22,032 nucleotides of DNA from a virus, in the IMG/VR virus record IMGVR_UViG_3300002835_007209, positions 1-22,032 of that record; one strand, given 5' to 3'. Positions 1 to 18,680 of this stretch are shown piece after piece. Both the position numbers and the translations under genes were made by a program. Numbering within the stretch: the stretch's first letter is position 1; every line of letters starts with the position of its first letter. Under the pieces are notes generated by a model. That model saw only the letters and a program-made list of their open reading frames with translations, searched no databases and was not told the DNA's origin.

Positions 1-1008
1 AAGATCACTGCATACCTTATGGAAGCCCAGCGTTTGGGGTTAACCATATATGGTCCCGACATTAACAAGTCTGTTGAGTTCTTTTCCATGTCACTCCCAG
101 GCGAAGAAGATGGTATTCGCTTTGGTCTTTCCAATGTCACTGGCTGTGGTAGCAGTGCTATCAAGGAAATTTTCCAAAAGAGACCGTTTAATTCATTTGA
201 GGAGTTTACTAATAAGTGTTCCAAATCATCTATTAAAGCTCCGCTAAGGGAAAGCTTTGATAAGGTTGGTGTATTCAAGTCTATTGGTCATGTATCGCAA
301 TTTGATCACGAGAAATATTACTTACCTATACTCGGGTTCCCTATTGCTGCTAGTTCTCATAAAACAGAGATTGATGAGTTCGTAGAGGATGCTAATGAAT
401 TCCACGAAACAATGTCAAACATTACACTTATTAAGGCAGTGGTGCGTTCTACAAAGAAAGCTACAGGATACCTGAGAGTTGAATTTGAAGATCACTCGGG
501 GTCTTGCACCGTGTTTGGCGAGCGTAATACCGAGCTGGCGCAGAGAGATTATGTTTACGCTTTGATCGGTGATAGGACACTACATGCTTACTGTGATGTC
601 TATGAAGCCGAAGATTCCAACCTGTTCAATATTATGATGCTTAAGAAGCACGGCATTGATCATAAATATGCTTGGCTTTACGATCACGGCATTGGTTATG
701 TAAGCGATGAAAAAACTCTTGCATATATTTTTAATATTAGAAATTTCATTACATCATCTGGAAAAGAAATGGCAAGCGTGTACTGCTGGGATGGAAAGCA
801 ATTCTTTAAGATTGTAGTATTCGCAGCAGTTTACAAGAAGGTAAAACAAATGCTGAAAGAGCATATGTGGTATGCCATTCGTCTTACAGCTGTTGAGGAT
901 AAGAATAGTTTAAACAGGCTTGACTCGTTCAAACTTGAGTCAGCGGATAAGATTATCCCCATTGATGATTATATAAAGAGGAAGAATCTAGTGGAGGTAG
1001 CAGTCTAG
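1..1008 (+). CDS. dnaE: DNA polymerase III alpha subunit (DnaE-like), C-terminal part
   Basis: This is the 3' end of a C-family replicative DNA polymerase; the frame is open from base 1, so the start and the catalytic PHP and palm domains lie upstream of the window. The visible 335 residues begin with the family's stretch leading into 'GPDINKS' (compare PPDVNxS), followed by a helix-hairpin-helix region containing 'IRFGLSNVTGCG' and 'FNSFEEF'. Two OB-like segments follow: one around bases 421-590 ('LRVEFEDHSGSCTVFG') and a second around 745-945 ('KEMASVYCWDG ... IVVFAAVYKKV'), the latter matching the usual DnaE OB fold. The ATG at 19 is internal to the conserved region and is not the true start. 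The stop overlaps the next gene's GTG by one base, so the two are probably cotranscribed. The family call is firm; the function (phage genome replication) follows from the family. Confidence 0.9.
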   Translation, partial: KITAYLMEAQRLGLTIYGPDINKSVEFFSMSLPGEEDGIRFGLSNVTGCGSSAIKEIFQKRPFNSFEEFTNKCSKSSIKAPLRESFDKVGVFKSIGHVSQFDHEKYYLPILGFPIAASSHKTEIDEFVEDANEFHETMSNITLIKAVVRSTKKATGYLRVEFEDHSGSCTVFGERNTELAQRDYVYALIGDRTLHAYCDVYEAEDSNLFNIMMLKKHGIDHKYAWLYDHGIGYVSDEKTLAYIFNIRNFITSSGKEMASVYCWDGKQFFKIVVFAAVYKKVKQMLKEHMWYAIRLTAVEDKNSLNRLDSFKLESADKIIPIDDYIKRKNLVEVAV

Positions 1009-1730
1009 TGTTACTTACAATCTACATCCCGACATATAGGAGGGATTCCTTAGATGACTGTTTAAACAGTATAATACATCAAACTAATTCTGATATTGAA
1101 ATTATTGTATCTGATAATGACCAAGACGGGTATGCAAGAGATATAGCTTACAAATATAAGAATTATGTATCTGACTACTCCATCAGGAAACAAAACATTG
1201 GTTGCGATGGTAATTGTTTACATGGCATTACCGCTGGCTCTGGTGACTATGTTTGGGTTATTGGTGATGATGATGTGTTGATTCCTGGAGCGATTGACAC
1301 TATAATGCCCATGCTCAATGGAGTTGATCGTGTAATGCAATTTTCTCCGTATTCTGGAGAAGTATTACCTGGTTTTTCTGGTACAATGATTGAGTTGATA
1401 AATAATCTTAACGATAAATCATATGTAATTGCTGCAACATTGGCGAGCATGAATGTATGGAAAAGAGAAGTCATGGATTTCAGAACTGGGGTAAAGCATC
1501 TTGATTCTAGAAATGTTTTAGCTTGGGCTGGTATTGGTTGCAAAACAGTAAGCGTTCCAGAGGTTCCTACTGTCATTGTTAATGATACAAATCACTTTCA
1601 GTTTAAAGAATTTGATAGTGTAATGTTTGAGTACTGTGATGCTCTATCCAGTATTGATGGTGTTGAGAAGTTTACATTTCATAATGCTAATAAATGGAAT
1701 TTTGTTAATGCATCAGTGGAGGCAAAATGA
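1008..1730 (+). CDS. GT2-family (GT-A fold) glycosyltransferase
   Basis: A 240-residue protein that probably transfers a sugar from a nucleotide-sugar donor. The N-terminus 'LTIYIPTYRR' and the following 'EIIVSDND' (residues 31-38) are the nucleotide-binding start of GT2 enzymes, and 'VIGDDDVL' (DDD at 87-89) is the metal-binding DxD region. The C-terminal half is less conserved and the acceptor cannot be predicted. The start is GTG, overlapping the polymerase stop by one base (TAGTG), with a GGAGG at 993-997 before it. The 3' end overlaps the cytidylyltransferase gene by four bases (ATGA), so translation is probably coupled. No membrane segment is visible, so it is probably cytoplasmic. The polymerase and RecA neighbours make DNA glycosylation one possibility, with virion or host-surface modification as alternatives. 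Confidence 0.85.
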   Translation: MLLTIYIPTYRRDSLDDCLNSIIHQTNSDIEIIVSDNDQDGYARDIAYKYKNYVSDYSIRKQNIGCDGNCLHGITAGSGDYVWVIGDDDVLIPGAIDTIMPMLNGVDRVMQFSPYSGEVLPGFSGTMIELINNLNDKSYVIAATLASMNVWKREVMDFRTGVKHLDSRNVLAWAGIGCKTVSVPEVPTVIVNDTNHFQFKEFDSVMFEYCDALSSIDGVEKFTFHNANKWNFVNASVEAK

Positions 1731-2161
1731 TTGTATATACAGGTGGGACATTTGATTTATTTCACTCTGGTCATGCTAGATTGTTGGAGAGATGTAAGAA
1801 GGCGGCTGGTGACGATGGCTACTTGGTCGTGTCCGTCAACCCCGATGAGTTCTGCTCTCAATACAAAGAGCCTCCAATCTGCAGTTTAGCTGAAAGAATG
1901 GAAGTTGTTTCTTCGTGCAAATGGGTGGACAAAGTAATTGTAAACTCGGGCGGTGCTGATTCTAAACCTGCTATCATGGAGGCAAAAGCTGATCTTGTAA
2001 TTGTTGGTTCCGACTGGCAAAGCAAAGATTACTATAAGCAAATGGGATTCACACAAGGATGGCTTGATGAGAATAATATCGGAGTGATGTTTGTTCCGTA
2101 TACAGAAGAGATTTCAACAACAATTATTAAATCAAGAATACTAGACAGGATGTTTCAATGA
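1727..2161 (+). CDS. HxGH nucleotidyltransferase (glycerol-3-phosphate cytidylyltransferase / RfaE-like)
   Basis: A 144-residue protein with the complete signature of the small cytidylyltransferase-like family. 'YTGGTFDLFHSGH' at the N-terminus carries the HxGH nucleotide-binding motif (HSGH at 13-16), and the C-terminal 'ISTTIIKSRI' (129-138) is the second family motif, in which ISTT contacts the phosphates. Length fits TagD-type enzymes, which activate a sugar or polyol phosphate with CTP; RfaE/HldE-type domains use ATP for heptose phosphate. The residues seen do not settle the substrate. It lies between a GT2 glycosyltransferase, with which it shares an ATGA overlap, and a RecA-like gene. 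The likely role is to make an activated donor such as CDP-glycerol or an NDP-sugar for the neighbouring transferases; this is inference from context. Confidence 0.85.
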   Translation: MIVYTGGTFDLFHSGHARLLERCKKAAGDDGYLVVSVNPDEFCSQYKEPPICSLAERMEVVSSCKWVDKVIVNSGGADSKPAIMEAKADLVIVGSDWQSKDYYKQMGFTQGWLDENNIGVMFVPYTEEISTTIIKSRILDRMFQ

Positions 2162-2170
2162 AGGAGAAAT

Positions 2171-3085
2171 ATGTTACTTGTAGATAAAAGAAAAGGCGAT
2201 ACAATGCCGATCCATGATGTTATCCCGACCCCTAGCGTTGGGCTTAATCGTGCATTAGGTGGTGGATTAAATACTGGTGCGACTCATCTATTTTGGGGTA
2301 CACCTTCTGTGGGCAAAACAACTATGTGCTTTAGAATTATGGCTGAGGCGCAGAAGATGGGGTATCGCCCAGTCATTGTTGATTCTGAGTCTTCGTACAG
2401 TGATGTGTATGCAGAGAAGTGTGGTCTAGATATTTCCGATGTGGTGGTGATTCAGTCTACTATTGTTGAAGATATTATGAAAAGTTTGATCGGGTATTTG
2501 ACTGATGATAAAGAAAAACATATTTTTTTGTTTGATTCGTTGTCTAATATCGTGAAGGAAGAGTTTTATGATAAGCCCGAAGGTGGTAAGGCGATGGGCT
2601 TGTCTGCTCGCTCGCAGGGTTACTTCTTACAGAAACTTGTAAATTATCTTCATAAGGAGCGTAATATCATGCTGTTTGTTGCTCATCAAACGGTTGACTT
2701 GAGTGGTATGTTCGCAATCACTAAGGCTAAGATGGGTAATGTTGTGCATCACAACATGCATAATGTCATCAAGCTTTTTCTTTCTATGTCTAAAGGAGAG
2801 ATGGAGCGTGAGGCGAATAATATGATTACTTCGCAACGGGCTGTGTGGACTATTGAAAAAACTAAGCAGTTACCTACTATTGGCTCTACTGGTTATTATT
2901 ATGTCCTCCCCCAATTAGGGCAGATTGATAGTCGGCGTGAGTTGATTGATATTGCGATTGAGATGAATGTTATTGTTCGTAAGGGCGCTTGGTATACTTA
3001 TGAGGATAGTAAGTGGAACGGCATGGGAGCTATTGAATTGACTGAGAAGCAAGTCAAGGAGATTCAAAAGCTTATCAAGGAATGA
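2171..3085 (+). CDS. recA: RecA/UvsX-like recombinase
   Basis: A 304-residue RecA-fold ATPase expected to form filaments on single-stranded DNA and carry out strand exchange. The Walker A motif GTPSVGKTT is at 43-51, the glutamate after the second strand (VDSES, E73) matches RecA's activating glutamate region, the Walker B strand FLFDS is at 119-123, and 'FVAHQT' fits the strand ending in the ATP-sensing glutamine. The protein is shorter than bacterial RecA (about 350 residues) and lacks an obvious extended C-terminal domain, as in many phage RecA/UvsX proteins. The start is the ATG at 2171, five bases after an AAGGAG. An in-frame ATG at 2204 has no comparable site. The stop overlaps the next gene by four bases. 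Recombination-dependent replication or repair is the likely role, together with the Cas4-like and resolvase genes downstream. Confidence 0.85.
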   Translation: MLLVDKRKGDTMPIHDVIPTPSVGLNRALGGGLNTGATHLFWGTPSVGKTTMCFRIMAEAQKMGYRPVIVDSESSYSDVYAEKCGLDISDVVVIQSTIVEDIMKSLIGYLTDDKEKHIFLFDSLSNIVKEEFYDKPEGGKAMGLSARSQGYFLQKLVNYLHKERNIMLFVAHQTVDLSGMFAITKAKMGNVVHHNMHNVIKLFLSMSKGEMEREANNMITSQRAVWTIEKTKQLPTIGSTGYYYVLPQLGQIDSRRELIDIAIEMNVIVRKGAWYTYEDSKWNGMGAIELTEKQVKEIQKLIKE

Positions 3086-4317
3086 TCTTTTCGGTTCATA
3101 CCGATCAGCATATTAAAGACGCTGTAAATATTTTTGGCTATGCCTATGGCTATACCAATATTGTAAAACATTTTAATCAGTTCACTTATCGTGGTAAGCA
3201 GTTAGAGGTCGTTGAGAATGATCCTGCTGCTCAGATACAAATGTTTTACATGGAACCTGAATGGCATCATCCTGTAACTGGTCAAGATTTTCGCCAGCCT
3301 GGTTTTAAAAAACATTATGACCATCAATATAAGATTAATGGTACATACCTAGAGGCTACTCGGGCTTGGGATTGGTGGATTCCTACCATGAAGTCATTTG
3401 ACGAAATCTGGGTAGGCAATCAATTCTCTGCAGATGCAGTTGCTAACTCTGGTGTTGATACACCTACATATATTTTTGAATTAGGTATTGATGATATGTG
3501 GACACCTTTTAAAAGAGGTAATCGGGGAAAGATTCGGTTTCTTCATGTTGATTCAGGTAGCCCCCGTAAGAGGGCTGATTTGGTTGAGAAAGCATTTACC
3601 ACTCTGTTTAAAGACAGAGATGATATTACGCTTACGCTTAAGTATCATGGCAACAATGAGATGAGCGTTATGGACTTGTTTAAGATAGAAGAGTCCTCCA
3701 GTAAAAATATTATAAGGATTCATAAAACATTGAGTCAACCTGACATGGTTAAACTTTACCATAACCACGATATTTTAATTTACCCTACAGAGGGTGAAGG
3801 GTTTGGGCTAATACCTCTGCAAGCTTTAGCTACGGGTATGCCAACAATATCAACAAGTCGGTGGTGTTCGTATGAAAAATATCTTGGTAACAATATCATT
3901 GAATCAACACTAGGCAGGACACAGCACACTGGTTATCACACTGGGGATGTTATTCTCCCAGATTTTGATTCAACTGTTGAACTTATGAGGAATGCAGTAG
4001 AGAATTTTGATGCTCAGTGTGATTACTACTATAAGCAGGCTCCTGCGGTTATTAAGGAATATAATTGGCAAAAACAGTGTGATAAGATGCTTAACTCTTT
4101 AATTAAGCGTGTGGGCATATCTATGTTTAAGCCAGTTGAGGCGATTAATAGGGACAAATATATATATTTCCAAAATGGCACTGGTTACATTACTGGATCT
4201 GGTATTGTCTTCTCAAGGGAGAACCCTGTACAGAGAGTATCTAATGATGAGTATAATTTATTAATTAGGAATTCTAATTTCAGAAGTCCAACAGATCAAG
4301 AAATAAGGAGCAAGTAG
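3082..4317 (+). CDS. GT4-family (GT-B fold) glycosyltransferase
   Basis: A 411-residue protein with the two-domain layout of GT-B retaining glycosyltransferases. The N-terminal domain contains 'DEIWVGNQFSADAVANSGV' and 'FELGID', typical of the acceptor domain and linker. The C-terminal donor-binding domain has 'LHVDSGSPRKRADLVEKAF' and then 'YPTEGEGFGLIPLQALATG' near residue 237. In the family this motif is usually EX7E; here the second position is glutamine (E239, Q247). The last ~70 residues, after about position 340, look like a separate small extension. The start ATG overlaps the recA stop by four bases and has little room for its own SD, so translational coupling is likely. It resembles the second GT4 at 8461 in motifs. 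The sugar and acceptor are unknown. Confidence 0.85.
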   Translation: MIFSVHTDQHIKDAVNIFGYAYGYTNIVKHFNQFTYRGKQLEVVENDPAAQIQMFYMEPEWHHPVTGQDFRQPGFKKHYDHQYKINGTYLEATRAWDWWIPTMKSFDEIWVGNQFSADAVANSGVDTPTYIFELGIDDMWTPFKRGNRGKIRFLHVDSGSPRKRADLVEKAFTTLFKDRDDITLTLKYHGNNEMSVMDLFKIEESSSKNIIRIHKTLSQPDMVKLYHNHDILIYPTEGEGFGLIPLQALATGMPTISTSRWCSYEKYLGNNIIESTLGRTQHTGYHTGDVILPDFDSTVELMRNAVENFDAQCDYYYKQAPAVIKEYNWQKQCDKMLNSLIKRVGISMFKPVEAINRDKYIYFQNGTGYITGSGIVFSRENPVQRVSNDEYNLLIRNSNFRSPTDQEIRSK

Positions 4318-4682
4318 TGAGTTACCTAGAAGATGAAATTGAAGAAGTTCGGTCATATATTTCCGAGCCGTTCTTCCAGAGCATTGATTGTAATCAGGGC
4401 TGGCATCAACTGATTGTTGATTGCCATAGAGAGCTGTCTGCTATTGATCCTGATTATAAGCTTTACCAAGTCAAAGAGAAGTTTGGTGGGTTAAGGTATT
4501 ATATAGATTCAAATTCAAAAGATTATTATGCGATGCGTGATGTAATTAACAAGTTTGAAAGTCTTTCTTTGCAAACATGTGAATACACTGGAGAACCTGG
4601 AGTCTTGGCTAAAGGGAAAGGCGGGTGGATGAAAACCTTGTCTACGAAAGTGATGTCGGAGTATGGCTATGAAAAAGCATAA
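4317..4682 (+). CDS. Conserved phage hypothetical protein (KEKFGGLRYY motif)
   Basis: A 121-residue protein of a type often seen in phages and plasmids, with no assigned biochemical role. The recognisable block is 'GWHQLIVDCHRELSAIDPDY' followed by 'QVKEKFGGLRYYID' (about residues 52-65). It is followed near residue 87 by 'CEYTGEPGVL' and 'GGWMKTL', where relatives often have a cysteine-containing knuckle; here only one cysteine of that part is left, so a complete metal site is unlikely. The start is GTG at 4317, sharing one base with the preceding TAG stop and preceded by AAGGAG seven bases upstream. It belongs to the same polycistronic run as the glycosyltransferase before it. I recognise the family pattern but cannot give a function. 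Confidence 0.7.
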   Translation: MSYLEDEIEEVRSYISEPFFQSIDCNQGWHQLIVDCHRELSAIDPDYKLYQVKEKFGGLRYYIDSNSKDYYAMRDVINKFESLSLQTCEYTGEPGVLAKGKGGWMKTLSTKVMSEYGYEKA

Positions 4683-4743
4683 TATTGTTGTTGTTGTTGG
4701 AGCTATTGTTTATTTATTTTTTCTTATTAAGATGTTTCTATGA
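4669..4743 (+). CDS. Single-span membrane microprotein, 24 residues
   Basis: A very short gene encoding MKKHNIVVVVGAIVYLFFLIKMFL. After a positively charged N-terminus (KKH) almost the whole peptide is one hydrophobic helix, long enough to span a membrane, with a lysine near the C-terminal end. GGAG at 4658-4661 lies seven bases before the ATG, and the stop overlaps the ATG of the next gene in an ATGA arrangement like other junctions in this operon. An in-frame ATG six bases upstream (4663) has poorer spacing. Small membrane proteins in phages can act as holin-like, superinfection-exclusion or membrane-protein regulators; nothing in the sequence chooses between these. The main doubt is its size: it could be a chance frame, but the SD and stop-start overlap argue for a real gene. 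Confidence 0.55.
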   Translation: MKKHNIVVVVGAIVYLFFLIKMFL

Positions 4744-5039
4744 AAAGAACTGAACAGGAAGAGATCAAGAGAGACAAAGCGAAGGCTGTAAAGAACTCTG
4801 GTCGTGGTCTAAGAAAGGGCGATGCTTCGTTGAATAAATTCTTACTTGATTACAAACATAACGAAAGAACTTTTACTCTTACATTAAAAGCTTGGAACAA
4901 AATGCGCAAAGATGCATGGAATGCTAATTATAAATATCCATGCATTTCTGTTGTATTTGGTGAGAACTCCGAGACAAAGGTTGCTATAATAGACTGGGAA
5001 GTGTTCCAAGAGCTGGTGAAAGGAAGCGAGTATGAGTGA
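4740..5039 (+). CDS. Small PD-(D/E)XK nuclease-like protein (Holliday junction resolvase-like)
   Basis: A 99-residue protein whose layout resembles the small archaeal Hjc/phage resolvase-like PD-(D/E)XK fold. There are glutamates in the N-terminal helix (E5, E7, E8), then 'NSGRGLRKGDA' (D28), a strand ending in 'LLDYKHN' (D37, K39) that would be the ExK-equivalent motif, then 'TFTLTLKAWNKMRKDA' and strands 'PCISVVFG' and 'VAIIDWEVFQELV'. That order, acid, GD, [D/E]xK, helix, two strands, is what this family shows. If active it would cut branched DNA during replication or packaging. The start overlaps the microprotein stop (ATGA), and the 3' end overlaps the next gene by eight bases. The assignment is by motif order only and remains tentative; a second, RuvC-like resolvase is encoded downstream. 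Confidence 0.5.
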   Translation: MKRTEQEEIKRDKAKAVKNSGRGLRKGDASLNKFLLDYKHNERTFTLTLKAWNKMRKDAWNANYKYPCISVVFGENSETKVAIIDWEVFQELVKGSEYE

Positions 5040-5181
5040 AAAATATAAATATAGTTTATTTTGTGACAAGTTGTCTGGTTATAAATCAATTGGTTTTGGC
5101 ATTGGGCATGATGATGGATATATCGGATTGTATATATTGTTCTGGATGGTCGGAATTCAAAGAAAGAAGGTAGAAGCATGA
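5032..5181 (+). CDS. Small hypothetical protein, 49 residues
   Basis: A short gene in the same run, with AGGA at 5021-5024 seven bases before its ATG, an eight-base overlap with the preceding gene, and an ATGA overlap with the following one. The product begins MSEKYKYSLFCDKLSG and has a middle segment 'YIGLYILFWMVGI' that is hydrophobic enough for a short membrane helix, followed by the basic end 'QRKKVEA'. This makes a small inner-membrane protein possible, but the segment is only about 13 residues and could equally be a buried strand. No family was recognised. The tight overlaps on both sides are the main argument that it is translated. Confidence 0.5.
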   Translation: MSEKYKYSLFCDKLSGYKSIGFGIGHDDGYIGLYILFWMVGIQRKKVEA

Positions 5182-5519
5182 ATCAGTACGGGAACCCAAT
5201 GTTCTTTCAGATATTAGAGGAGCTACGAGCGCTCCACACAAAGAAAGGGCAGGACTATGGCACTGCGAGTGATCCTCTTGCCAATGTTCGTGCGTCAGTT
5301 GACTGGGGCGTTCCAGGCTGGGTTGGTACATTAATCCGAGCAAATGATAAAGTAATTCGCCTGCAAAGTGCCGCTAAGGGGAGTAAATTAGTTAATGAAG
5401 GCGTTGAGGATTCCCTTATAGACCTTGCATCATACGCAATTATTGCTCTTGCACTTTACCGTGAAGAGAATGAAATGAAACAGGCTATGGTTGTTACTGA
5501 AGATTTAAGGAAGAAATAA
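5178..5519 (+). CDS. MazG-like / DUF1599-like all-alpha nucleotide-associated protein
   Basis: A 113-residue helical protein with the features of phage MazG-like proteins related to DUF1599 (named a nucleotide-modification-associated domain). The key positions are 'KKGQDYG' (K22, K23, D26-Y27-G28), 'DPLANVRAS' (N36), 'LIRANDKVIRL' (R54, D57-K58) and 'VEDSLIDLASYAIIAL' (E77, D78, D82). The two acidic clusters on separate helices are those that bind magnesium and nucleotide in this superfamily. Members can hydrolyse nucleoside triphosphates or appear beside modified-base pathways; which applies here is not visible. Its place beside polymerase, recombinase and glycosyltransferase genes would fit a nucleotide pool or modification role. 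The ATG overlaps the preceding stop (ATGA). Confidence 0.7.
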   Translation: MNQYGNPMFFQILEELRALHTKKGQDYGTASDPLANVRASVDWGVPGWVGTLIRANDKVIRLQSAAKGSKLVNEGVEDSLIDLASYAIIALALYREENEMKQAMVVTEDLRKK

Positions 5520-5520
5520 T

Positions 5521-5838
5521 ATGGCTGATATCATAATTAATAAAGAGATGCTATTGGAGCAAATGGGTGATAAAGCAGAAGAATTCATGGAATGTCTTCG
5601 TATAGTTGAAGATATAATTGAAAATCCTGATCACTATTTAGGAATGCAGGCTGTCAAGTATGCTAATATATTAGCAGCGTATAGAACACTAATGATTGTA
5701 AAATCGCAAGCTTTTAAAAGAAAGTCTGCTGTTATGAATGATCAAGACAAATTTGTTAATGACATATGGAAAACAATGTATGAAGCATTAGCGGAAAACA
5801 TAAATGCTCTAAAACTCGCTGGGAAAGGCGGATATTAA
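5521..5838 (+). CDS. Helical hypothetical protein, 105 residues
   Basis: A predicted almost entirely alpha-helical protein with no recognised domain. The segments 'KAEEFMECLRIVEDIIENP' and 'AVKYANILAAYRTLMIVKSQAFKRKS' have a heptad-like spacing of hydrophobic residues, suggesting a helical bundle. It contains no cysteine pair or nucleotide-binding motif. AAGGAAG about eight bases before the ATG supports the start at 5521, one base after the preceding stop, and its own stop shares a base with the next ATG (TAATG). It sits directly before the Cas4-like exonuclease, so a role as a DNA-binding or accessory recombination protein would fit (for instance as a single-strand annealing or exonuclease partner), but the sequence does not prove it. 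Confidence 0.6.
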   Translation: MADIIINKEMLLEQMGDKAEEFMECLRIVEDIIENPDHYLGMQAVKYANILAAYRTLMIVKSQAFKRKSAVMNDQDKFVNDIWKTMYEALAENINALKLAGKGGY

Positions 5839-6566
5839 TGAAATCATTGAAGGTACTTAAACAACCAAAGAAGATTGCAGTTGTTGCTGAGGAATTTTCA
5901 GACGCAGATTTAGTAGATAGTCTATCCAAAGCAATTGATGATTCATTGGCAGAGCGTAATCAGCCTGAATTTAAAAAAGTGAATGGGTTTCACCCAAGCT
6001 ATACGAATCAATGCCCGAGATACTGGAATTACTTGTTTACTGGCGTGAGCGTTACGCCAGACTTCAGACCGCAGACTTATCGTATCTTTGATAATGGTCA
6101 TGCAGTTCACGACAGGATTTATAAATACTTTAGAGACATGGGCATCCTTGTTCAAGAGGAAATCCCAGTATCGTATTCATCACCACCAATTGAAGGCACA
6201 GCTGACGGTATTATCAATTGGTACGGGGAAAAATTGATTGAATTAAAATCAATTAGCTCCGAGGGCTTTCATTACAGGAAGCTTCATAACAAACCAAAGG
6301 ATGAGCACTATAGGCAAGCGCAAATCTATATGGAATGTTTAAATCTTGATAGCGGTTTTGTTATTTATGAATGTAAGAATAATCAAGAAATTCTGCCTAT
6401 TTTTATAAAAAAAGATCAAGACTATATTGATAAATTATTTAAGAAATATAGAACTATTTATGGGAGTTACACAAGCGGTGACATCCCCGACAGACCATAC
6501 AAGAGAACATCTAAGCATTGTTCTGATTGTAATGTTGCTGCTTTATGCTGGGGAGAAAGTGGTTAA
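5838..6566 (+). CDS. Cas4/RecB-like PD-(D/E)XK exonuclease with Fe-S cysteines
   Basis: A 242-residue nuclease of the Cas4/RecB-like branch. The catalytic layout is 'NGHAVHDRI' (H91), 'GTADGI' (D123), 'LIELKSIS' (E135-x-K137) and 'YRQAQIYM' (Q160-M165), the expected sequence of H, D, ExK and QxxxY motifs. One cysteine lies near the N-terminal side (C59, 'NQCPRYW') and three near the C-terminus (C228-x2-C231-x5-C237). These four flank the nuclease core exactly as the 4Fe-4S ligands of Cas4 and AddB do. There is no Cas1 or Cas2 nearby and no CRISPR array, so a phage recombination exonuclease that resects DNA ends for the RecA-like protein is the likely role. The ATG at 5838 shares one base with the preceding stop; AAAGG lies upstream. 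Confidence 0.85.
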   Translation: MKSLKVLKQPKKIAVVAEEFSDADLVDSLSKAIDDSLAERNQPEFKKVNGFHPSYTNQCPRYWNYLFTGVSVTPDFRPQTYRIFDNGHAVHDRIYKYFRDMGILVQEEIPVSYSSPPIEGTADGIINWYGEKLIELKSISSEGFHYRKLHNKPKDEHYRQAQIYMECLNLDSGFVIYECKNNQEILPIFIKKDQDYIDKLFKKYRTIYGSYTSGDIPDRPYKRTSKHCSDCNVAALCWGESG

Positions 6567-6867: not shown

Positions 6868-7430
6868 TGAACCTTAAGAATATTGTACACAAGAACGATA
6901 GCAAGGTGTTATCAATAGACCCGTCATCTCACTCTTTAGGGTGGGCAGTTATTGATTTTAGTAGCGGTCTTAAATTAGTAGATTGCGGTAAAATAAAGTT
7001 TACAAAAACTAATGATATTTCAATTAAATTTAATGAGATTAATTCTGGCATTAAAGAAATATGCAAGGAACATAACCCATCTGTTTGTGTAATTGAACAA
7101 TCAGTTTACATTCAAAACTTCCAAACAAGCCGTGTTATATCTTACATAATCGGTTACACCTGGGGAATTGTTCAGACTTACTGTTTCAAAGTAATTGATA
7201 TTAACCCAATTTTGTGGAAACGGGGCATTGGGTATAAGAATATATCCAAGAATGATAAGATAGAATTGAATACGGAAGCAAAGAAAAAGAAAGAAAGAAA
7301 AGATCGTGTTCGGCAAATTGTGATAGAATACTTCCATATGTCAAATGAAGATTTAGCAGATGATGATATTGTTGATGCAGTAGGCATTGGTCTTTGGTAT
7401 TATCTCATGGCGGTTTCTCATGGCTCTTGA
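6867..7430 (+). CDS. RuvC-like Holliday junction resolvase
   Basis: A 187-residue RNase H-fold nuclease of the RuvC group. The first catalytic aspartate is in 'LSIDPSSHSLGWAVID' (D18), the glutamate in 'VCVIEQSV' (E77), and the C-terminal acids in 'LADDDIVDAVGIG' (D166-D167 and D170), which is the expected order and spacing for RuvC. The middle segment, near residues 122-150, is strongly basic (a run containing KKKKERKDR) and would contact DNA. The enzyme would resolve recombination or replication branches before packaging. The ATG at 6867 overlaps the zinc-finger stop by one base, and the 3' end overlaps the HTH gene by 11 bases. The length is close to that of bacterial RuvC (about 170 residues). 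Confidence 0.85.
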   Translation: MNLKNIVHKNDSKVLSIDPSSHSLGWAVIDFSSGLKLVDCGKIKFTKTNDISIKFNEINSGIKEICKEHNPSVCVIEQSVYIQNFQTSRVISYIIGYTWGIVQTYCFKVIDINPILWKRGIGYKNISKNDKIELNTEAKKKKERKDRVRQIVIEYFHMSNEDLADDDIVDAVGIGLWYYLMAVSHGS

Positions 7431-7713
7431 GCCGTACAAGGATAAGTCTTGGCTGTACGAGCACTATGTCAAGAAGAGAATGAATTTAACTGATGTTGTT
7501 AAGTTACTAAAACAAACTTACAACATTGAAATAACACCACAAGGTTTGTATAACTGGTGTAAGAAATATGATTTATTAAAATTTAGAGGTAAGGGAAGAA
7601 ACCTTGCTGTAACTTCTAAGAAACCAAAGTCTCCTATGCAACAAGCGGCTGAGCGTAGGAAGCGTGAATTGAGAAAACAACGAGATATGAAAAAGAAAGG
7701 TATGGGTAGATAA
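7420..7713 (+). CDS. Helix-turn-helix DNA-binding protein, 97 residues
   Basis: The protein begins MALEPYKDKSWLYEHYVKKR and contains an HTH-like unit, 'MNLTDVVKLLKQTYNIEITPQGLYNWCKKYDL', in which the second part ('TPQGLYNWCKKY') looks like the recognition helix. The C-terminal 40 residues are highly basic (many K and R), which would add non-specific DNA contact. The start at 7420 gives an 11-base overlap with the resolvase gene; a longer reading with ATG at 7387 would lie further inside the resolvase and adds residues without HTH character. An SD is weak here, so translation is probably coupled. The stop shares a base with the next ATG. The target is unknown; regulator, resolvase accessory protein or homing-type relic are all possible. 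Confidence 0.65.
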   Translation: MALEPYKDKSWLYEHYVKKRMNLTDVVKLLKQTYNIEITPQGLYNWCKKYDLLKFRGKGRNLAVTSKKPKSPMQQAAERRKRELRKQRDMKKKGMGR

Positions 7714-8468
7714 TGCAAAGAAGTATTACGGCAGGAGATTTAGGTTTATTTGCTGAGTTGAATATTGTATATAATCAAGCTCGGGTAATTGAGGCGAATC
7801 AGAATAAGACTAAGTATAAGTGTTTGGGCTCGGGTCATTGTTGCACTATTGGATTAACAATTCCAATGGCAGAATGTGCGAACATTGCTTTCAATTTAAC
7901 TCAACAATTTTATTTGTACTTAGAAGATAAAGGTCAGGAGCATGCGGATGAATGGCTTAAGTCTGTTATTGATTCCTTAAAAGATGCAATGCATGATAAA
8001 GATCTTAAATTCGGGGGTGAAACAACTCGTAAGTGTGCTTTCTATAAAGGCGGTTGTACTATTTATGGCTTTAGACCGCTAGTTTGCAGAAGCTACGGAG
8101 CATTCGTTGGAGTTGATGATGTATGCCCTCGGGAGAGAAATATTTACGGTAATGTTGATTTCTTTACTGGTACGCCAGTTGAAGGAATGGTTCGGCACTA
8201 TCAGGAGATATTGGAAAAGTATTCAAAAGATAAAGGCGAGAATTATGATGTTGTTGTGTATATGCCTTTGGGTGTTCTCAGCTTCCTTCTGACAACAGAG
8301 GATCTTCAGGAGTTAGCAGATACTACCGATGCAAGCATTTGGCGAGCAGTTGAAGGTTGGTATAATTACAGAGTTGAGTATACAAAAGTTCACGGACTAC
8401 CATTGCCTAAATTAAGATCAGCTGCTGAAAGTGCAGGAAAGAAAATTGCTTTTTCTGTAGATGAGTAA
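7713..8468 (+). CDS. YkgJ-like cysteine cluster protein
   Basis: A 251-residue protein with the cysteine pattern of the YkgJ/UPF0153 family, thought to bind zinc or an iron-sulfur cluster. The core is 'CLGSGHCC' (C37, C43, C44), then 'RKCAFYKGGCTIYGFRPLVCRSYG' split around C108, C115 and C125 with the invariant 'RP..CR' (R121, P122). This is the order CxxxxxCC ... C ... C ... RPxxC that marks the family. The N-terminal 30 and C-terminal 100 residues are outside the core and unassigned. The biochemical role of the family is poorly known, and its place in a phage replication operon is unusual. It shares single-base and eight-base overlaps with its neighbours, so it belongs to the same transcript. 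Confidence 0.8.
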   Translation: MQRSITAGDLGLFAELNIVYNQARVIEANQNKTKYKCLGSGHCCTIGLTIPMAECANIAFNLTQQFYLYLEDKGQEHADEWLKSVIDSLKDAMHDKDLKFGGETTRKCAFYKGGCTIYGFRPLVCRSYGAFVGVDDVCPRERNIYGNVDFFTGTPVEGMVRHYQEILEKYSKDKGENYDVVVYMPLGVLSFLLTTEDLQELADTTDASIWRAVEGWYNYRVEYTKVHGLPLPKLRSAAESAGKKIAFSVDE

Positions 8469-9519
8469 AGTAGAGTGGAATGATGCAGGCTCCCATGTGG
8501 CGGGCACTGGGTATGCTGATGCTGCCTATCCTATATATGAAGCGTTATTCAAAAATGGATTGGTTTCCAAGACATATGTTGAGCATCTTGCTCCAGAGAT
8601 TCCTGGCGTTGGGTATTCATTAAGGAATACTAAATTTACTAATCCCGTTGTGATTAACAATACACTCCCTGAATATTATGTTATTGGTTCTGAGTATTCA
8701 ATTGGCTTTACATATTGGGAAACCAATCGTATAAGCGATGACAGCGTTGATGGAATGAACAAGATGGATGAGATTTGGACTACATCTGAATTTATGAAAA
8801 ATGTATTTATAAACTCTGGTGTGACCAAGCCAGTGTATGCCTTTAATTTGGGTGTTAATCCAGATCTTTACTACCCTCATAAAAGGAAGCCTCATAAGCC
8901 GTTTACATTCTTAAGCATGGGGTCTCCTTCAACGAGGAAGAATTCTCAAATGTCTGTTGATGCGTTCATGCATCTTTTTGGTCGTGATGAAAATTATAAA
9001 CTAATTTACAAATCTAACGGGGCTCCAGACGCTCGCTTTCATAAAGGTACGAGCAATCAGTCATCTATTCACGGGCATCCTCGTATTGAAGTTATAGATT
9101 GGAAATTAAGTGAAAGCCTTCTTTCTGCGCTATACGATGAATCAGACTGCTTACTATACCCAACAAGTGGCGAAGGATGGGGGCTGATACCATTTCAGGC
9201 AATAGCAAAAGGTATTCCAACGATCTGCACTAACGCTACTGCCTGCGAGGAGTATGCAGAAATGTCTGTACCTTTAGATTACAAATGGTCTAGCAAGAAC
9301 ATGGATGGTGTATATAAAGATACTGGGGAGTGGGCAGAGCCAAGTTTTGATGATTTGTGTGATAAAATGTTATATGTAGTTAAAAACTATGATGCTGTCT
9401 CAAATAAGACATTAGAAGGTGCTAAGTACATAAATGAGAATATGACTTGGGACAAAGTAACAAAGGACTATGTAGATAGATTATGTCAAATATTGAACAT
9501 GTTAAACAAAAAAGTTTAG
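8461..9519 (+). CDS. GT4-family (GT-B fold) glycosyltransferase, second copy
   Basis: A 352-residue GT-B glycosyltransferase. The N-terminal domain has 'GSHVAGTGYADAAYPIYEAL', a glycine-rich acceptor-domain opening, then 'TYWETNRI' and 'DEIWTTSEFMKN', and 'NLGVNPDLYYP' near the linker. The donor domain has 'FLSMGSPSTRKN' and 'YPTSGEGWGLIPFQAIAKG' with E238 and Q246; as in the first GT4, glutamine replaces the second glutamate of the usual EX7E. Shared phrases ('DEIW', 'GEGxGLIPxQA', 'ATG'/'AKG', 'WDK/WQK') suggest the two GT4 genes may be distant paralogues. It overlaps the YkgJ-like gene by eight bases and its own 3' end overlaps the terminase small-subunit candidate by 37 bases. Sugar and acceptor are unknown. 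Confidence 0.85.
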   Translation: MSKVEWNDAGSHVAGTGYADAAYPIYEALFKNGLVSKTYVEHLAPEIPGVGYSLRNTKFTNPVVINNTLPEYYVIGSEYSIGFTYWETNRISDDSVDGMNKMDEIWTTSEFMKNVFINSGVTKPVYAFNLGVNPDLYYPHKRKPHKPFTFLSMGSPSTRKNSQMSVDAFMHLFGRDENYKLIYKSNGAPDARFHKGTSNQSSIHGHPRIEVIDWKLSESLLSALYDESDCLLYPTSGEGWGLIPFQAIAKGIPTICTNATACEEYAEMSVPLDYKWSSKNMDGVYKDTGEWAEPSFDDLCDKMLYVVKNYDAVSNKTLEGAKYINENMTWDKVTKDYVDRLCQILNMLNKKV

Positions 9520-10088
9520 TAGAGAAAATTAGAGATGTTGAACAAGTTGGTCTTTTGCATGTAAAAGGTTATTCAATGAGGGAAATATCTTCACTCATGA
9601 CATTGCCGATTAATGATGTTAAAGAGTACATTGATGAATATAAGTTAATATTAAATCAAACTATTGAGGAAGACCCGTTTTTTCTTGAAAAAGTACAATT
9701 TAATACAATTAAAGCTCTTACTGAATTTGATGAATTAAGTAAGGAAGCTTGGGAAACAATTAATATAGCAACAGATAACGGCATGGTTGCTGCCAGAATT
9801 CAGGCAATCAAGCTGGCTGGGGATCTTGCTACTAAGAAAGCTCAACTCCATAAGCTTATGGGTGGGAATCAAACAGATGGTGAATATATTGCCAGAATGC
9901 AGAAGGCTGAGAATGTTAATCAAATTTTATCAAAAATATTAAGAGATGTTATCTCAAAGCATCCATCTATTGCCGAGGAAGTTCGCAAGGAGCTTGAAAT
10001 TGCTTTTGAGATTATGACAGGAAAACACACTGACATTGTAACCAACACTGCATTCACGGTAGAAGAAGATGAAGAACAGGGCTCATAA
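9483..10088 (+). CDS. terS: Probable terminase small subunit
   Basis: A 201-residue protein placed directly before the large terminase gene. The N-terminal 20-55 region, 'VEQVGLLHVKGYSMREISSL' followed by 'INDVKEYIDEYK', reads as a helix-turn-helix, as expected for the DNA-recognition domain of small terminases. The middle ('FNTIKALTEFDELSKEAWET', 'RIQAIKLAGDLATKKAQL') is long and helical and could form the oligomerisation region, and the end is acidic. Small terminases are too divergent for a firm call by motif, so position is the main argument. The start at 9483 overlaps the glycosyltransferase by 37 bases; the next in-frame ATG (about 9576) would cut into the HTH. Its stop lies inside the first 36-bp repeat at 10083. 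Confidence 0.6.
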   Translation: MSNIEHVKQKSLVEKIRDVEQVGLLHVKGYSMREISSLMTLPINDVKEYIDEYKLILNQTIEEDPFFLEKVQFNTIKALTEFDELSKEAWETINIATDNGMVAARIQAIKLAGDLATKKAQLHKLMGGNQTDGEYIARMQKAENVNQILSKILRDVISKHPSIAEEVRKELEIAFEIMTGKHTDIVTNTAFTVEEDEEQGS

Positions 10089-10190
10089 TTTGAGATCTTT
10101 TGAAAACGCCTATAGAGATCATAATTTGAGATCTTTTAAAAAAGCCTATAGGGCTCATAATTTGAGATCTTTTCAAAACGCCTATAGGGT
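10083..10190 (+). repeat. Three tandem 36-bp repeats between terS and terL
   Basis: Three head-to-tail copies of a 36-bp unit start at 10083, 10119 and 10155. Each begins TCATAATTTGAGATCTTTT, then one variable base (G, A, C) in a TTTTnAAAA palindrome, then ACGCCTATAG with small changes (AGCCTATAG in copy 2, and the last three bases vary). Inside each unit lie several dyads: CTCA-taatt-TGAG in copies 1 and 3 (ATCA in copy 2), AGATCT, TTTTnAAAA, and CCTATAG(G). Each unit also contains TTTGAG and TATAGA/G 16 bases apart, a weak -35/-10 pair. The first copy overlaps the terS stop. Possible roles are a packaging (pac/cos) recognition site for TerS, an operator array, or tandem promoters for terL. 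Confidence 0.9.
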
Positions 10191-10201
10191 AGTATAGAAA
10201 C
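10190..10201 (+). promoter_or_regulatory. Probable terL promoter -10 box for a leaderless transcript
   Basis: TAGTAT at 10190-10195 fits the TANNNT -10 pattern and ends exactly six bases before the terL ATG, so the expected transcription start is the A of the ATG. There is no SD-like sequence at usable distance, whereas almost all other genes here have one. The same TATAGAAAC 9-mer (10193-10201) recurs at 12153-12161 before the gene at 12170. The element lies at the end of the third 36-bp repeat. Transcript mapping would be needed to confirm it. Confidence 0.5.
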
Positions 10202-11935
10202 ATGTCTGATTTCTTAGGTATCAATCTTGAATTTAATGATTTTGATAGATTATTGCGCCAAGATGAATTTATGGAAGAACCTGTTTCTATTGAAACTTTT
10301 GTTCAAGATAAACACTATCTCGGTCTCCCCCCTCTATCTGAGATTCAGTTGGAGATTGTAAAGCATAGCACACAGATATTCAAAGAACACACTTTAATAA
10401 AATTATATGGCGAAGAAAAGGGAAAAGAGATTTACAAGAAATACACAGACAATGAAGTGATTTGTATGCTCGGCAAAGGATCTGGAAAAGACCATTGTGC
10501 CAGAATATCTATGGCGTATACCGTATATCTATTACATTGCTTAAGAGATCCTCTTGGCTATTATGGTAAAGCTCACGGTGTTTATATTGACCTTCTAAAC
10601 CTTGCTGTAAACGCTCAGCAAGCTCAGAGAGTGTTCTTTGAACCATTAAAGAACTTATTGCTATCATCTCCTTATTTTAATAATGTGGGGTTTGAACCTA
10701 GAGTATCAGAAATATTTTTCTTTTCCAGACCTGTAAGATTATTCTCTGGTCACTCTGAATCTGAAGGTTGGGAAGGTTATGAAGTAATGACAGTTATTCT
10801 TGATGAGATATCTGCATTTAAAACAGATAGCGAATTGAAAGGTGAAGTGAGATCAAAGGGATCAGCATCTGCAATTTATAACATGAGTAAGCTATCCGTA
10901 ATGTCACGGTTTCCAGAAATTGGTAAGGTTATTCTATTGTCATTCCCACGCTATAAAGGTGACTTTATTCAGCAGAGATATTTCAGCTCTAGAGAAAAGA
11001 ATGAACCTAAAACTTGGTCAATTAAAGCAGCAACATGGGAAGTTAATCCAACAATTAAAAGAGAGCAATTAGAATCTGAGTATATTAGGAATCCAATTGA
11101 AGCAGCATCTCGTTTTGAATGTGAACCTCCAACAATGGAAGATGCTTACTTTAGAGATGAAGAATTAGTAAGAAAAGCTTTTATATATTCAGATGACCCT
11201 ATGGATGAAGAAGGTAGATATAAGCCGTGGTTTAATAATACTGATGGTCATCAAAGATTTATTCATATAGACTTAGGTTTTAAAAGAGATAGAACAGCAT
11301 TATGTATGACGCATTGTTCTGGATTTAAAGAAATAGTTACATCAATGGGTGTTGAAAGGCTGCCAGTTATTAATGTTGATTTAATACATTCCTGGAAGGC
11401 TGAACCTGGTAAAGAAATTAACTTTGCTTCTGTGAGACAGCTTATTGTTGATCTCTGTAGAAGGTTTGATGTTGCTAAAGTTACTTTTGATAGATGGCAA
11501 TCTATTGAAATGATTCAAAGCTTGAAAGCTCAAGGTATTAATGCAGACTTTCACAGCGTTAAGAAAACTGATTATGATACATTGATGACATCTATTTATG
11601 ACACAAGGCTTCGTGGGTATTGGAATCATGTTCTTGTTGAAGAAGAATTGTTGAAGTTAAGATTATTTAGTAACAATAAAATAGATCACCCTAATTCTGG
11701 ATCTAAAGACTTAGCTGATGCTCTTGCTGGGTCGGTATTTAATTCTGTGCAAAATATGGGTGTTGAACAAGAAGTTGAAATAGAAATACTAGGTATTGAT
11801 GCCCCAGATGGTGAAGATTTTGAGGATTATGGTACAGTGACAGTATATAATCGTGATATGAATGCATATGTGCCAGGTTTTAATAAAACACAAATTCCAG
11901 TAGAGGAGGTGGGTGTATGGATGGAGAACATTTAA
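10202..11935 (+). CDS. terL: Terminase large subunit
   Basis: A 577-residue DNA-packaging motor with both terminase domains. The ATPase part has Walker A 'GKGSGKD' (91-97) and Walker B 'MTVILDE' (196-202, with catalytic E202); a C-terminal RNase H-like nuclease part has 'HIDLGFKRDRTAL' (D357), 'VTFDRW' (D430) and 'SKDLADALAG' (D503, D506) as the metal-binding acids. It would cut concatemeric DNA and pump it into the prohead together with TerS and the portal. Length and motif order fit the family. The ATG at 10202 lacks an SD and follows a -10 box by six bases, suggesting a leaderless message. Unusually, no portal or capsid gene follows; the next genes are small and then a terminator. The start of the next gene lies inside its 3' end. 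Confidence 0.95.
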   Translation: MSDFLGINLEFNDFDRLLRQDEFMEEPVSIETFVQDKHYLGLPPLSEIQLEIVKHSTQIFKEHTLIKLYGEEKGKEIYKKYTDNEVICMLGKGSGKDHCARISMAYTVYLLHCLRDPLGYYGKAHGVYIDLLNLAVNAQQAQRVFFEPLKNLLLSSPYFNNVGFEPRVSEIFFFSRPVRLFSGHSESEGWEGYEVMTVILDEISAFKTDSELKGEVRSKGSASAIYNMSKLSVMSRFPEIGKVILLSFPRYKGDFIQQRYFSSREKNEPKTWSIKAATWEVNPTIKREQLESEYIRNPIEAASRFECEPPTMEDAYFRDEELVRKAFIYSDDPMDEEGRYKPWFNNTDGHQRFIHIDLGFKRDRTALCMTHCSGFKEIVTSMGVERLPVINVDLIHSWKAEPGKEINFASVRQLIVDLCRRFDVAKVTFDRWQSIEMIQSLKAQGINADFHSVKKTDYDTLMTSIYDTRLRGYWNHVLVEEELLKLRLFSNNKIDHPNSGSKDLADALAGSVFNSVQNMGVEQEVEIEILGIDAPDGEDFEDYGTVTVYNRDMNAYVPGFNKTQIPVEEVGVWMENI

Positions 11936-12069
11936 TGGATAAGGATACGGTAGATATACAGTTAGTTCTTAAAATTATGAGTGATAAAGTGTCTGAATTG
12001 ACATTGCAAAATGCTGTTTTAATTGCGCAATTAGATTCAATCAGAAGATCCTCTCTGAAAAATATTTAA
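11917..12069 (+). CDS. Small coiled-coil protein, 50 residues
   Basis: A short gene overlapping the end of terL in another frame, with a very strong SD (GAGGAGGT at 11903-11910) six bases before its ATG. The product starts MDGEHLMDKDTVDIQLVLKI and continues with a heptad-like stretch 'VSELTLQNAVLIAQLDSIRR', so a short coiled coil is likely. A second in-frame ATG at 11935 has no comparable SD. Small proteins of this shape are common after terminase genes, but the function is not known. The good SD makes it a convincing gene despite its size. Confidence 0.7.
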   Translation: MDGEHLMDKDTVDIQLVLKIMSDKVSELTLQNAVLIAQLDSIRRSSLKNI

Positions 12070-12128
12070 TAAAATATTTATAGACGAAGGTTGTTTCTAG
12101 TAAAGTTACTGATAAGTTGTATGTCAAG

Positions 12129-12161
12129 CCGATAGGCGTTATTCAAAACCAATATAGAAAC
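12129..12161 (+). promoter_or_regulatory. Inverted partial copy of the 36-bp repeat and TATAGAAAC box
   Basis: On the minus strand, 12132-12148 reads TTTTGAATAACGCCTAT, which matches TTTTGAAAACGCCTAT of the first 36-bp repeat near terL with one extra T. Directly downstream on the plus strand is TATAGAAAC (12153-12161), identical to the nine bases before the terL ATG. This suggests the same protein or sigma factor acts at both sites. No experiment is implied; the match is by eye. Confidence 0.45.
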
Positions 12162-12169
12162 GAGAGAAA

Positions 12170-12514
12170 ATGCAAATTAAAGAAGCAAGTTCATTCCCAG
12201 TAATCTCAAGAAGTGGTCGTACATCTGCTGAATTGCAAATGATTATTGATACCTTGAACCTATCTAGTCAAAGTGGAAAGCCTTATTCAATTGAGGGAGT
12301 TCAAGCTGGTAAGAAATACAATTCAATGCAACAGAGAATTCGTGCCCAAGCTCGTAAGATTAATGTAAGCGTTGAGATTCATTACAATAAAGAAACTGAA
12401 ACTCTCTATTTTAGAGTGCCAGTATCGTCAGGAATAGAGACCTCTTTGGTCCCCGATAAGGTTGTAAAATCAAAAGATATTAAGAGTGTCAAGACTTTTG
12501 TAAAAAATAAGTAA
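12170..12514 (+). CDS. Basic hypothetical protein, 114 residues
   Basis: A small basic protein reading 'ISRSGRTSAELQMIIDTLNLSSQSGKPYSIEGVQ' in its first half and 'NSMQQRIRAQARKINVSVEIHY' then 'TLYFRV' in its second. The helix-rich front and 'RIRAQARKINVSVEIHY' suggest a small alpha/beta, possibly DNA-binding, protein; no named domain was recognised. The ATG follows a TATAGAAAC box (12153-12161), also found in front of terL, and only a weak GAGAG lies between box and ATG, so the leader is very short. The 100 bases before it hold no other gene. A strong terminator follows ten bases after the stop, so this is the last gene of the terL transcript, or a monocistronic unit. Confidence 0.6.
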   Translation: MQIKEASSFPVISRSGRTSAELQMIIDTLNLSSQSGKPYSIEGVQAGKKYNSMQQRIRAQARKINVSVEIHYNKETETLYFRVPVSSGIETSLVPDKVVKSKDIKSVKTFVKNK

Positions 12515-12523
12515 TATTAAAAT

Positions 12524-12560
12524 AAAAAAAGGGCTGGGAGCGATCTCAGCCCTTTTTTTT
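12524..12560 (+). terminator. Strong intrinsic, probably bidirectional terminator
   Basis: A-tract at 12524-12530, then a stem GGGCTGGGA / TCTCAGCCC with one G-T pair and a GCGA loop (12531-12552), then eight T at 12553-12560. The nine-base GC-rich stem with a U-run is the classical rho-independent form, and the A-run makes it work in both directions. It ends the transcript that includes the gene at 12170 and separates it from the promoter-like box that follows immediately. Confidence 0.9.
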
Positions 12561-12563
12561 ATG

Positions 12564-12575
12564 TATACTATAGGC
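12564..12575 (+). promoter_or_regulatory. Extended -10 promoter for a leaderless transcript
   Basis: TATACT at 12564-12569, preceded by TG, is a close match to the -10 consensus, directly after the terminator. It ends six bases before the ATG at 12576, the same arrangement as before terL, so the transcript probably starts at that ATG with no leader. There is no SD before 12576. The -35 region overlaps the terminator hairpin and has no clear match. Confidence 0.6.
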
Positions 12576-13394
12576 ATGGGACTTTTTGAAACACAATCAA
12601 TAGAAATTAATCAAGATCAATTGGCAAAATGGAATGTTCTTTTTGCTATTCCTTGCTACGATCAGCAAATATCAGAACCAACAATGATGAGTCTAATTAA
12701 GACTCTAATGTATTTTAGAGATCATAGCATGAAGTTTGCAGTAGCAACTATCACTGATTCATTGATCAATCGTGCTAGGAACAATATGTCGGCTAAATTT
12801 ATGGGTAATGAACAATTTACTCACATGATGTTTATTGATGCCGATATCTCCTGGGAACCTGAAGACATTATAAAATTGCTATGGCATGATAAAGAAGTAA
12901 TGACTGTTGCTTATCCTATTAAATCAATTGATTGGGAAAAAGTTGCTAAGAATGTAAAAGACGGAGTTGCTGTTGAAGAACTTGCGGCTAAGAGTGTTAG
13001 ATTTGTTGTTAACCCAGTTAAGGATCAAACTACTTTAAATGTTGAAAACGGGGCAATTGAAATATTTGATGCTGGCACTGGTTTTATGCTTATAAAAAGA
13101 GAAACATTTTTAAAGCTTATAGAAGCCCACCCTGAATTAAAGTATGATGATGATACTGGCTCTCTTGCTAAAAATGAAAAACCGTGGACATACGCATTTT
13201 TTAATTCTTATATTGATGCCCATAAAAATAGATTCTTATCTGAAGACTATGGCTTTTGTAGATATTGGCAGAATATTGGTGGAAAAGTTTGGGTAGATCC
13301 TGCTATTACTTTAGGTCATCTTGGTCGTATGAAATATACTGGAACAATGATGTCCTTTATTGAAGAGAATGCCAAGATCGTTGATAAATCGTAA
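12576..13394 (+). CDS. GT-A-type glycosyltransferase (phage family with DAD and SEDY motifs)
   Basis: A 272-residue protein like the GT-A-type transferases found in many aquatic phages. The N-terminus 'VLFAIPCYDQQISEPTMMSL' is the nucleotide-binding opening; 'MMFIDADISWEPEDIIKLL' supplies the DxD (D88, D90) that holds the metal and nucleotide-sugar; 'GTGFMLIKRETF' and 'LSEDYGFCRYWQNIGG' (E223, D224) form the later catalytic region. The C-terminal 'DPAITLGHLG' also fits the family. I chose ATG 12576 because a TATACT box ends six bases before it; the ATG at 12561 would lie upstream of that box. It follows a strong terminator, so it seems to be expressed independently of the upstream genes. This is the fourth glycosyltransferase of the window. 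Confidence 0.8.
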   Translation: MGLFETQSIEINQDQLAKWNVLFAIPCYDQQISEPTMMSLIKTLMYFRDHSMKFAVATITDSLINRARNNMSAKFMGNEQFTHMMFIDADISWEPEDIIKLLWHDKEVMTVAYPIKSIDWEKVAKNVKDGVAVEELAAKSVRFVVNPVKDQTTLNVENGAIEIFDAGTGFMLIKRETFLKLIEAHPELKYDDDTGSLAKNEKPWTYAFFNSYIDAHKNRFLSEDYGFCRYWQNIGGKVWVDPAITLGHLGRMKYTGTMMSFIEENAKIVDKS

Positions 13395-14129: not shown

Positions 14130-14142
14130 AAAGGTGATAACA

Positions 14143-14652: not shown

Positions 14653-14664
14653 TGAAAGGGACAA

Positions 14665-15078: not shown

Positions 15079-15079
15079 A

Positions 15080-15513: not shown

Positions 15514-15524
15514 AAGGGGTAGAA

Positions 15525-15856: not shown

Positions 15857-15878
15857 ATACCTTTTGAAAGGGGTAAAT

Positions 15879-16702: not shown

Positions 16703-16704
16703 TT

Positions 16705-16863: not shown

Positions 16864-16866
16864 TTA

Positions 16867-18679: not shown

Positions 18680-18680
18680 A

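Follow-up and report, generated by a model that had tools for sequence, protein, structure and literature searches.

The IMG/VR virus record IMGVR_UViG_3300002835_007209 is a 22,032-base virus fragment, analyzed here over its whole length (the window). An earlier note, made from the sequence, had listed four glycosyltransferases (GTs) and a nucleotidyltransferase (NT) between positions 1008 and 13394. All five are found as intact open reading frames (ORFs) on the + strand, encoding a GT2-family enzyme, the NT, two GT4-family enzymes (GT4-1 and GT4-2) and a GT-A-like protein, the last being the weakest assignment. As that note also held, these sugar genes lie among replication and packaging genes; polIII-alpha, RecA, a Cas4-like gene, RuvC, a gene in the TerS position and TerL are confirmed (Table 1). 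Here we ask on what these enzymes act, and argue that they are probably directed at the phage virion.

Table 1. Sugar genes of the window and the genes among which they lie.
Feature	Positions	Strand	Basis and remarks
GT2-family glycosyltransferase, 240 aa	1008..1730	+	PF00535 E 2.8e-15; accessory in family
HxGH nucleotidyltransferase NT, 144 aa	1727..2161	+	PF01467 2.4e-20; phrog_7878; reads FDLFHSGH
GT4-1 glycosyltransferase, 411 aa	3082..4317	+	PF00534 E 2.9e-11; phrog_2170 3.8e-46
GT4-1 C-terminal domain, residues ~356-408	4147..4305	+	homologous to C-terminal domain of post-capsid small protein
GT4-2 glycosyltransferase, 352 aa	8461..9519	+	PF20706 5.7e-13; PF00534 5.2e-8; phrog_2170 5.6e-37
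GT-A-like protein (phrog_1574)	12561..13394	+	Anp1 E 3e-4; two genes behind TerL
CxxCxxCC (PF03692) protein	7713..8468	+	overlaps GT4-2 by 8 bases
DUF1599 / Nucleotide modification associated domain 1 protein	5178..5519	+	PF07659 8.2e-6; 26.5 vs cut-off 25 bits
DNA polymerase III alpha (polIII-alpha), C-terminal part	1..1008	+	phrog_405 9.4e-21; full relative 1133 aa
RecA/UvsX-like recombinase	2171..3085	+	phrog_97 2.2e-39
Terminase large subunit TerL	10202..11935	+	42-44% to Streptomyces Stanwilliamsviridae

Megablast finds no DNA match to the window among 50,697 phage records, and the virus is an environmental one, probably from freshwater. Forty-eight IMG/VR contigs carry relatives of GT4-2, and gene order is kept across them down to ~50% protein identity. 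The GT4-2 and GT-A genes are present in every contig that covers their places: GT4-2 invariably follows the CxxCxxCC gene and precedes the one in the TerS position, and GT-A lies two genes behind TerL each time. In the close pairs tested, dN for the GT4s is 0.01-0.09 and dS 0.09-0.55, the pattern expected of intact genes under purifying selection. Because order is kept in the 48 contigs and dN lies well below dS for the GT4s, the arrangement of the sugar genes is not a product of chance. One relative, G015 (108,840 bases), carries all five window sugar genes; since its two ends match at 127 of 133 bases and split one tail gene, we take it to be a near-complete, circularly permuted genome of the window family. 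Among isolates, the closest TerL proteins come from Streptomyces phages of the Stanwilliamsviridae, and the capsid and portal of window relatives are 51% and 46% identical to those of one of them, Gilson. By these comparisons the window virus appears to be an uncultured, distant relative of that family.

GT4-1, whose gene overlaps RecA by 4 bases and stands beside it in most relatives, ends in a domain that recurs next to the capsid. A hidden Markov model (HMM) built from four GT4-1 tails only was searched over 2177 ORFs. Its matches are seven GT4-1 ORFs and, in each of the seven contigs that include the capsid region, the small protein whose gene immediately follows that of the capsid (E 3e-6 to 8.5e-16 for the latter), with no other match at E 0.05 among the 2177 ORFs. 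The reverse model, of the post-capsid protein, recovers the tails of six of the seven GT4-1s at 1e-12 to 1e-15 (7.7e-13 for the window) and that of the seventh at 0.006. Alignment of the GT4-1 tail with the post-capsid domain by hhalign gives 99.2% over 55 columns, and the best of 30 column-shuffled control models reaches E 0.03. Although tblastn finds no isolate homologue of the post-capsid protein, the combined model matches gp32 of Streptomyces phage Gilson, encoded directly behind the Gilson capsid gene (E 8e-4). The GT4-1 of the relative G002 stops at residue 350, without the C-terminal extension, so that the extension is, on this comparison, a clade-specific addition. By these matches, the GT4-1 tail forms a link, at the level of a domain, between a GT and head proteins.

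Sugar genes also accompany head genes directly. A third GT4 (GT4-3) precedes the ribonucleotide reductase (RNR), portal, protease and capsid genes in 7 of 7 window-family contigs covering the region. In Gilson and Jay2Jay a GT4 gene stands ahead of RNR and of head or lysis genes, and in Rhodococcus phage Weasels2 one stands ahead of RNR. In five longer contigs of diverged phages the order reads portal, protease, capsid, GT4, GT2-like, NT, connector and then tail genes, with one or two extra genes between NT and connector in two of the five, and TerL precedes the portal wherever the contig reaches that far. Pfam models identify TerL, portal, S78 protease, PF05065 capsid (E 1e-54) and connector in one of these contigs and the capsid in a second. 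As the five capsids are only 43-62% identical, the arrangement from capsid through GT4, GT2-like and NT genes to connector is old. A gp6-like connector gene also occurs in 13 of 47 NT loci outside the window family. Separately, the RNR between GT4-3 and the portal is of two types at the same locus (L053, L172 and L175 versus L166, L173, L174 and L176), with ~33% identity between the groups and 82-83% within one, a gene replacement in place.

The polIII-alpha stop codon shares its last base with the start of the GT2 gene, which in turn overlaps the NT gene by 4 bases. This slot between polIII-alpha and RecA varies, holding GT2 and NT in the window type, GT2 without NT in L019, a GT4-2-like gene in L039 and a small Methyltransf_24-type gene in G002. 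Across 15 long relatives GT4-2 homologues are found in 15 and NT in 5, and the GT2-NT pair is, by gene content, accessory in the family. Homologues of the NT in isolates come mainly from Streptomyces (63 records) and Arthrobacter (4) phages. A Pas34-like GT occurs in the same numbers of records, and in all those inspected closely it stands directly beside the NT. As homology between this GT and the window GT2 is not detectable, the same NT appears to be paired with different GTs while adjacency is kept. Among environmental NT loci, a window-type GT2 stands directly upstream in 34 of 80, and a recognized GT lies within 3 kb in 30 of the 47 outside the window family; in one viral collection, over 560 loci with a related NT were confirmed. 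Cyanophage relatives of the NT are grouped with carbohydrate kinase, phosphoheptose isomerase and epimerase genes, a GT adjoining one of them and virion genes another. This persistence of GT neighbors across isolates and environmental loci supports the view that the NT would feed a GT by making its nucleotide-activated donor. A further context (L214-L222, L233, L236, L242, L252, L253 and L256) consists of RuvC upstream, the NT and a ~475-aa protein with a GT25 domain, followed in many of these loci by TerS- and TerL-like genes.

The AlphaFold model of GT4-2 has a GT-B fold (pLDDT 83.8, pTM 0.85), and its best Foldseek match in the PDB is chlorovirus B736L (3OY2, E 1.5e-15), followed by MshA, BshA, SdgB and others; hmmsearch also matches B736L (6.5e-15), at 14% identity. 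In GT-B enzymes the acceptor is usually bound by the N-terminal half. Residues 1-75 of GT4-2 are 23-36% identical in relatives whose residues 141-290, the sugar-donor half, are 57-88% identical. GT4-1 does not share this hypervariable N-terminus: in L024 its first 80 residues are 95% identical, as against 36% for the first 75 of GT4-2. Because its acceptor side is hypervariable, GT4-2 probably meets changing acceptors. In both GT4 families the second acid of the E-x7-E donor motif is replaced by Q, or in one row by N (e.g., EGWGLIPFQ, EGFGLIPLQ), with only the distant L050 retaining E, a change that may mark an unusual donor. The neighboring CxxCxxCC protein, a possible partner of GT4-2, is 55-94% conserved among relatives with invariant cysteines, and no homologue was found in phage isolates. 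It belongs to PF03692, the family of the flagellin methylase FliB. The B736L match was considered as a hint of a capsid target and dropped, as T4 alpha-GT also matches B736L strongly (PMC6024577).

For the GT-A-like protein, the Anp1 match lies below the Pfam cut-off, yet the same match is found in 11 of 12 relatives, among which D93xD95 is invariant. Its AlphaFold model (pLDDT 36.6) was not used. Relatives are widespread in aquatic phages, with more than 570 related loci confirmed in one viral collection. In G015 we also noted matches to FkbM/RfbT-type methyltransferase and sulfotransferase families, candidate glycan-tailoring enzymes.

The host is probably an actinobacterium, since the Stanwilliamsviridae are nearest by TerL and a WhiB-like gene lies in the second half of the window (20107-20466). 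A search for the TerL in bacterial genome contigs returned one 3-kb contig from a Flavobacteriales metagenome-assembled genome, which is probably misbinned, and no host was assigned from it. Positions 13773-21859 comprise ~8 kb of mostly unknown small genes in an order conserved in relatives, and the ORF scan gives single matches there to WhiB, DUF6551, DUF3846 and an Api92-like domain.

The evidence described above favors, with a probability of about 0.62, the reading that the phage glycosylates its virion with sugar enzymes of its own, GT4-1 being directed at the head. The virion is preferred to DNA because the GT4-1 tail is common to the post-capsid protein and because relatives of the NT lie in head operons. 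The sequences themselves establish the gene identities, the conserved synteny, the shared domain, the position of NT relatives in capsid operons and the variability confined to one domain; from them we infer the head as acceptor, a docking role for the shared domain, a donor, an order of sugars and a timing as follows. The NT would activate a phosphorylated sugar or polyol as nucleotide donor for the adjoining GT2; GT4-1, carried to the head by its C-terminal domain, would attach a sugar to one of the components there; and GT4-2 and the GT-A enzyme would extend or diversify the glycan. Since the enzymes are translated with replication and packaging genes, they would be present before and during head assembly. 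We propose more tentatively that GT4-1 may be a capsid-docked GT, having gained from a head protein a module by which it joins the head during assembly, so that glycosylation of the shell would be coupled to assembly, while GT4-2 would diversify its acceptor half in the manner of a surface-antigen enzyme.

Several points weigh against glycosylation of the virion. The process is here predicted from genes, and membership among such systems is drawn by analogy. The window GT genes lie in the replication and packaging block, outside the structural block, and the capsid-operon GT4s are superfamily-level relatives only of the window GT4s. GT4-1 occurs without the domain in some lineages, such as G002, which makes the domain dispensable for activity. 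As the post-capsid protein is of unassigned function, the common domain might have a role apart from docking at the head. Finally, similarity to B736L does not discriminate between capsid and DNA targets.

An alternative is that the genes have separate targets, with GT4-1 acting on the head, GT4-2 and the CxxCxxCC protein on something else, and GT2 and NT on a small molecule or cofactor. The independent coming and going of GT2 and NT (GT2 without NT in L019, neither in G002) speaks for such a division, as do the very different ways in which GT4-1 and GT4-2 evolve. In other phages, however, NT, GT4 and GT2-like genes form one block behind the capsid, and we regard a division of targets as doubtful.

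Ranking below it, and improbable in our judgment, is remodeling of the host surface, in which the GTs and NT would alter teichoic-acid-like or other cell-wall glycans and so block superinfection or adsorption to debris. The NT does resemble glycerol-3-phosphate cytidylyltransferase (GCT; TIGR01518, E 1e-19; 1COZ, E 3e-17), but its score of 70.7 bits is far under the GCT equivalog cut-off of 165.4. It retains HxGH, and its counterpart of the RTxGISTT signature is without the arginine (the window reads PYTEEISTT), whereas the Streptomyces and Arthrobacter relatives retain R..G.S.T; by both score and signature it falls outside TagD/GCT. O-antigen conversion of the GtrB type is a known phage use of GT2 enzymes, although the GtrB-like PHROG matches the window GT2 at just E 0.047. 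A hypervariable GT4-2 could follow variable host glycans. The common domain and the placement of related genes in capsid operons point instead to the virion, and no obvious flippase or integrase stands beside the GTs in the annotated neighborhoods examined, which did not amount to a systematic search.

The least probable alternative is DNA glycosylation, in which the GTs would put sugars on bases of the phage genome as a shield against restriction, as in T4 and RB69, with GT2 and NT supplying or transferring the sugar. The RB69 arabinosylation-associated module between DNA polymerase and UvsX offers a precedent for the position (PMC6024577), the window GTs are cotranslated with replication genes, and GT-B enzymes of the GT4-like kind are able to use DNA as acceptor. 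Against this, the dCMP/dUMP-hydroxymethylase-type family PF00303 is found in 0 of 23 records, including near-complete G015 and two complete Streptomyces phages, with positive controls that worked. No TET/JBP family member scores above cut-off in the relatives, by a model for which no control genome carries TET/JBP; one sub-threshold match (14 bits) occurs in G016. Neither PF00303 nor an above-cut-off TET/JBP match is found in G015 and ten other long relatives. Among the otherwise unlabelled proteins of G015, a generic 2-oxoglutarate oxygenase family is seen and a base-modification pathway was not found, in a scan that covered all but the very small ORFs, those cut by fetch boundaries and the largest two of the tail. 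A C5-methylase occurs in 1 of 15 records. The 50 best fold matches of GT4-2 include neither T4 AGT nor BGT. The probably changing acceptor of GT4-2 is easier to reconcile with proteins or glycans than with a DNA base, which is constant and for which a variable acceptor-side domain is unexpected. The DUF1599 gene, considered as a marker of DNA modification, was rejected as one: it is absent from G002, G003 and G015, all of which keep GT4-1, GT4-2 and GT-A, and so does not travel with the GTs. As side observations, only the distant relative G002 (L055:12961-14818) has an insertion between GT4-1/RecA and Cas4, which encodes a C5-cytosine methylase and a nucleoside 2-deoxyribosyltransferase; Dam and ThyX families occur elsewhere in that contig.

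The earlier note had named DNA, capsid or tail, and host surface as possible targets. Capsid or tail is now the best supported of these, by the common domain and by the NT genes in head operons. The weight that the note placed on DNA is lost, both because DUF1599 is missing from relatives retaining the GTs and because neither a dCMP/dUMP-hydroxymethylase-type enzyme nor a TET/JBP match above cut-off is found in any relative. Phage GTs are often assumed to protect DNA, and one study of freshwater phages proposes such protection from the presence of GTs alone (PMC10202952); the sequence evidence here favors the virion. If virion glycosylation is correct, it would suggest that the process is common in aquatic phages, and docking would explain how a soluble GT finds its virion substrate, a targeting mechanism for phage virion glycosylation that we did not find described in the literature surveyed.

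Known systems resemble that of the window to different degrees. Chlorovirus NY-2A B736L is the best structural and profile match of GT4-2, and chloroviruses glycosylate their major capsid protein. B736L differs in its low identity, its acceptor is unproven and it matches DNA GTs too, so that the likeness is not diagnostic. RB69 and T4, which carry arabinosyl- and glucosyl-hydroxymethylcytosine, share a GT-related module between DNA polymerase and UvsX/RecA; they differ in that a hydroxymethylase-type enzyme was not found in the window relatives and the T4 DNA glucosyltransferases fall outside the top fold matches.

Mycobacteriophages use GTs that they encode themselves to glycosylate capsid and tail tube (Freeman 2023, relayed in PMC12363180). 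Che8, Corndog and Myrna (Freeman et al. 2023, relayed in PMC12363180 and PMC12619734) are alike in being of actinobacteriophage type, in using their own GTs and in a capsid or head target, here proposed. There the glycans were measured and the GT identified, whereas the window system is predicted from its genes. The literature surveyed describes no GT with a domain common to a post-capsid protein, and no mycobacteriophage is among the organisms listed for the tblastn matches.

The Stanwilliamsviridae phages Gilson, Faust and Jay2Jay are the nearest by TerL. They differ in TerL sequence (42-44% identity), and their NT partners a GT of another family, the Pas34-like one; the GT-A gene (phrog_1574) has no match in the three. 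They are alike in having one or more GT4s before RNR and head genes and in having a GT-NT pair, which in Gilson and Faust sits between RuvC and TerL. In Gilson the GT4 genes are gp22/gp23, and gp78-80 encode GT, GT and NT. Because the isolates Gilson and Jay2Jay have the arrangement of a GT before RNR and head genes, the claim of virion glycosylation is testable now.

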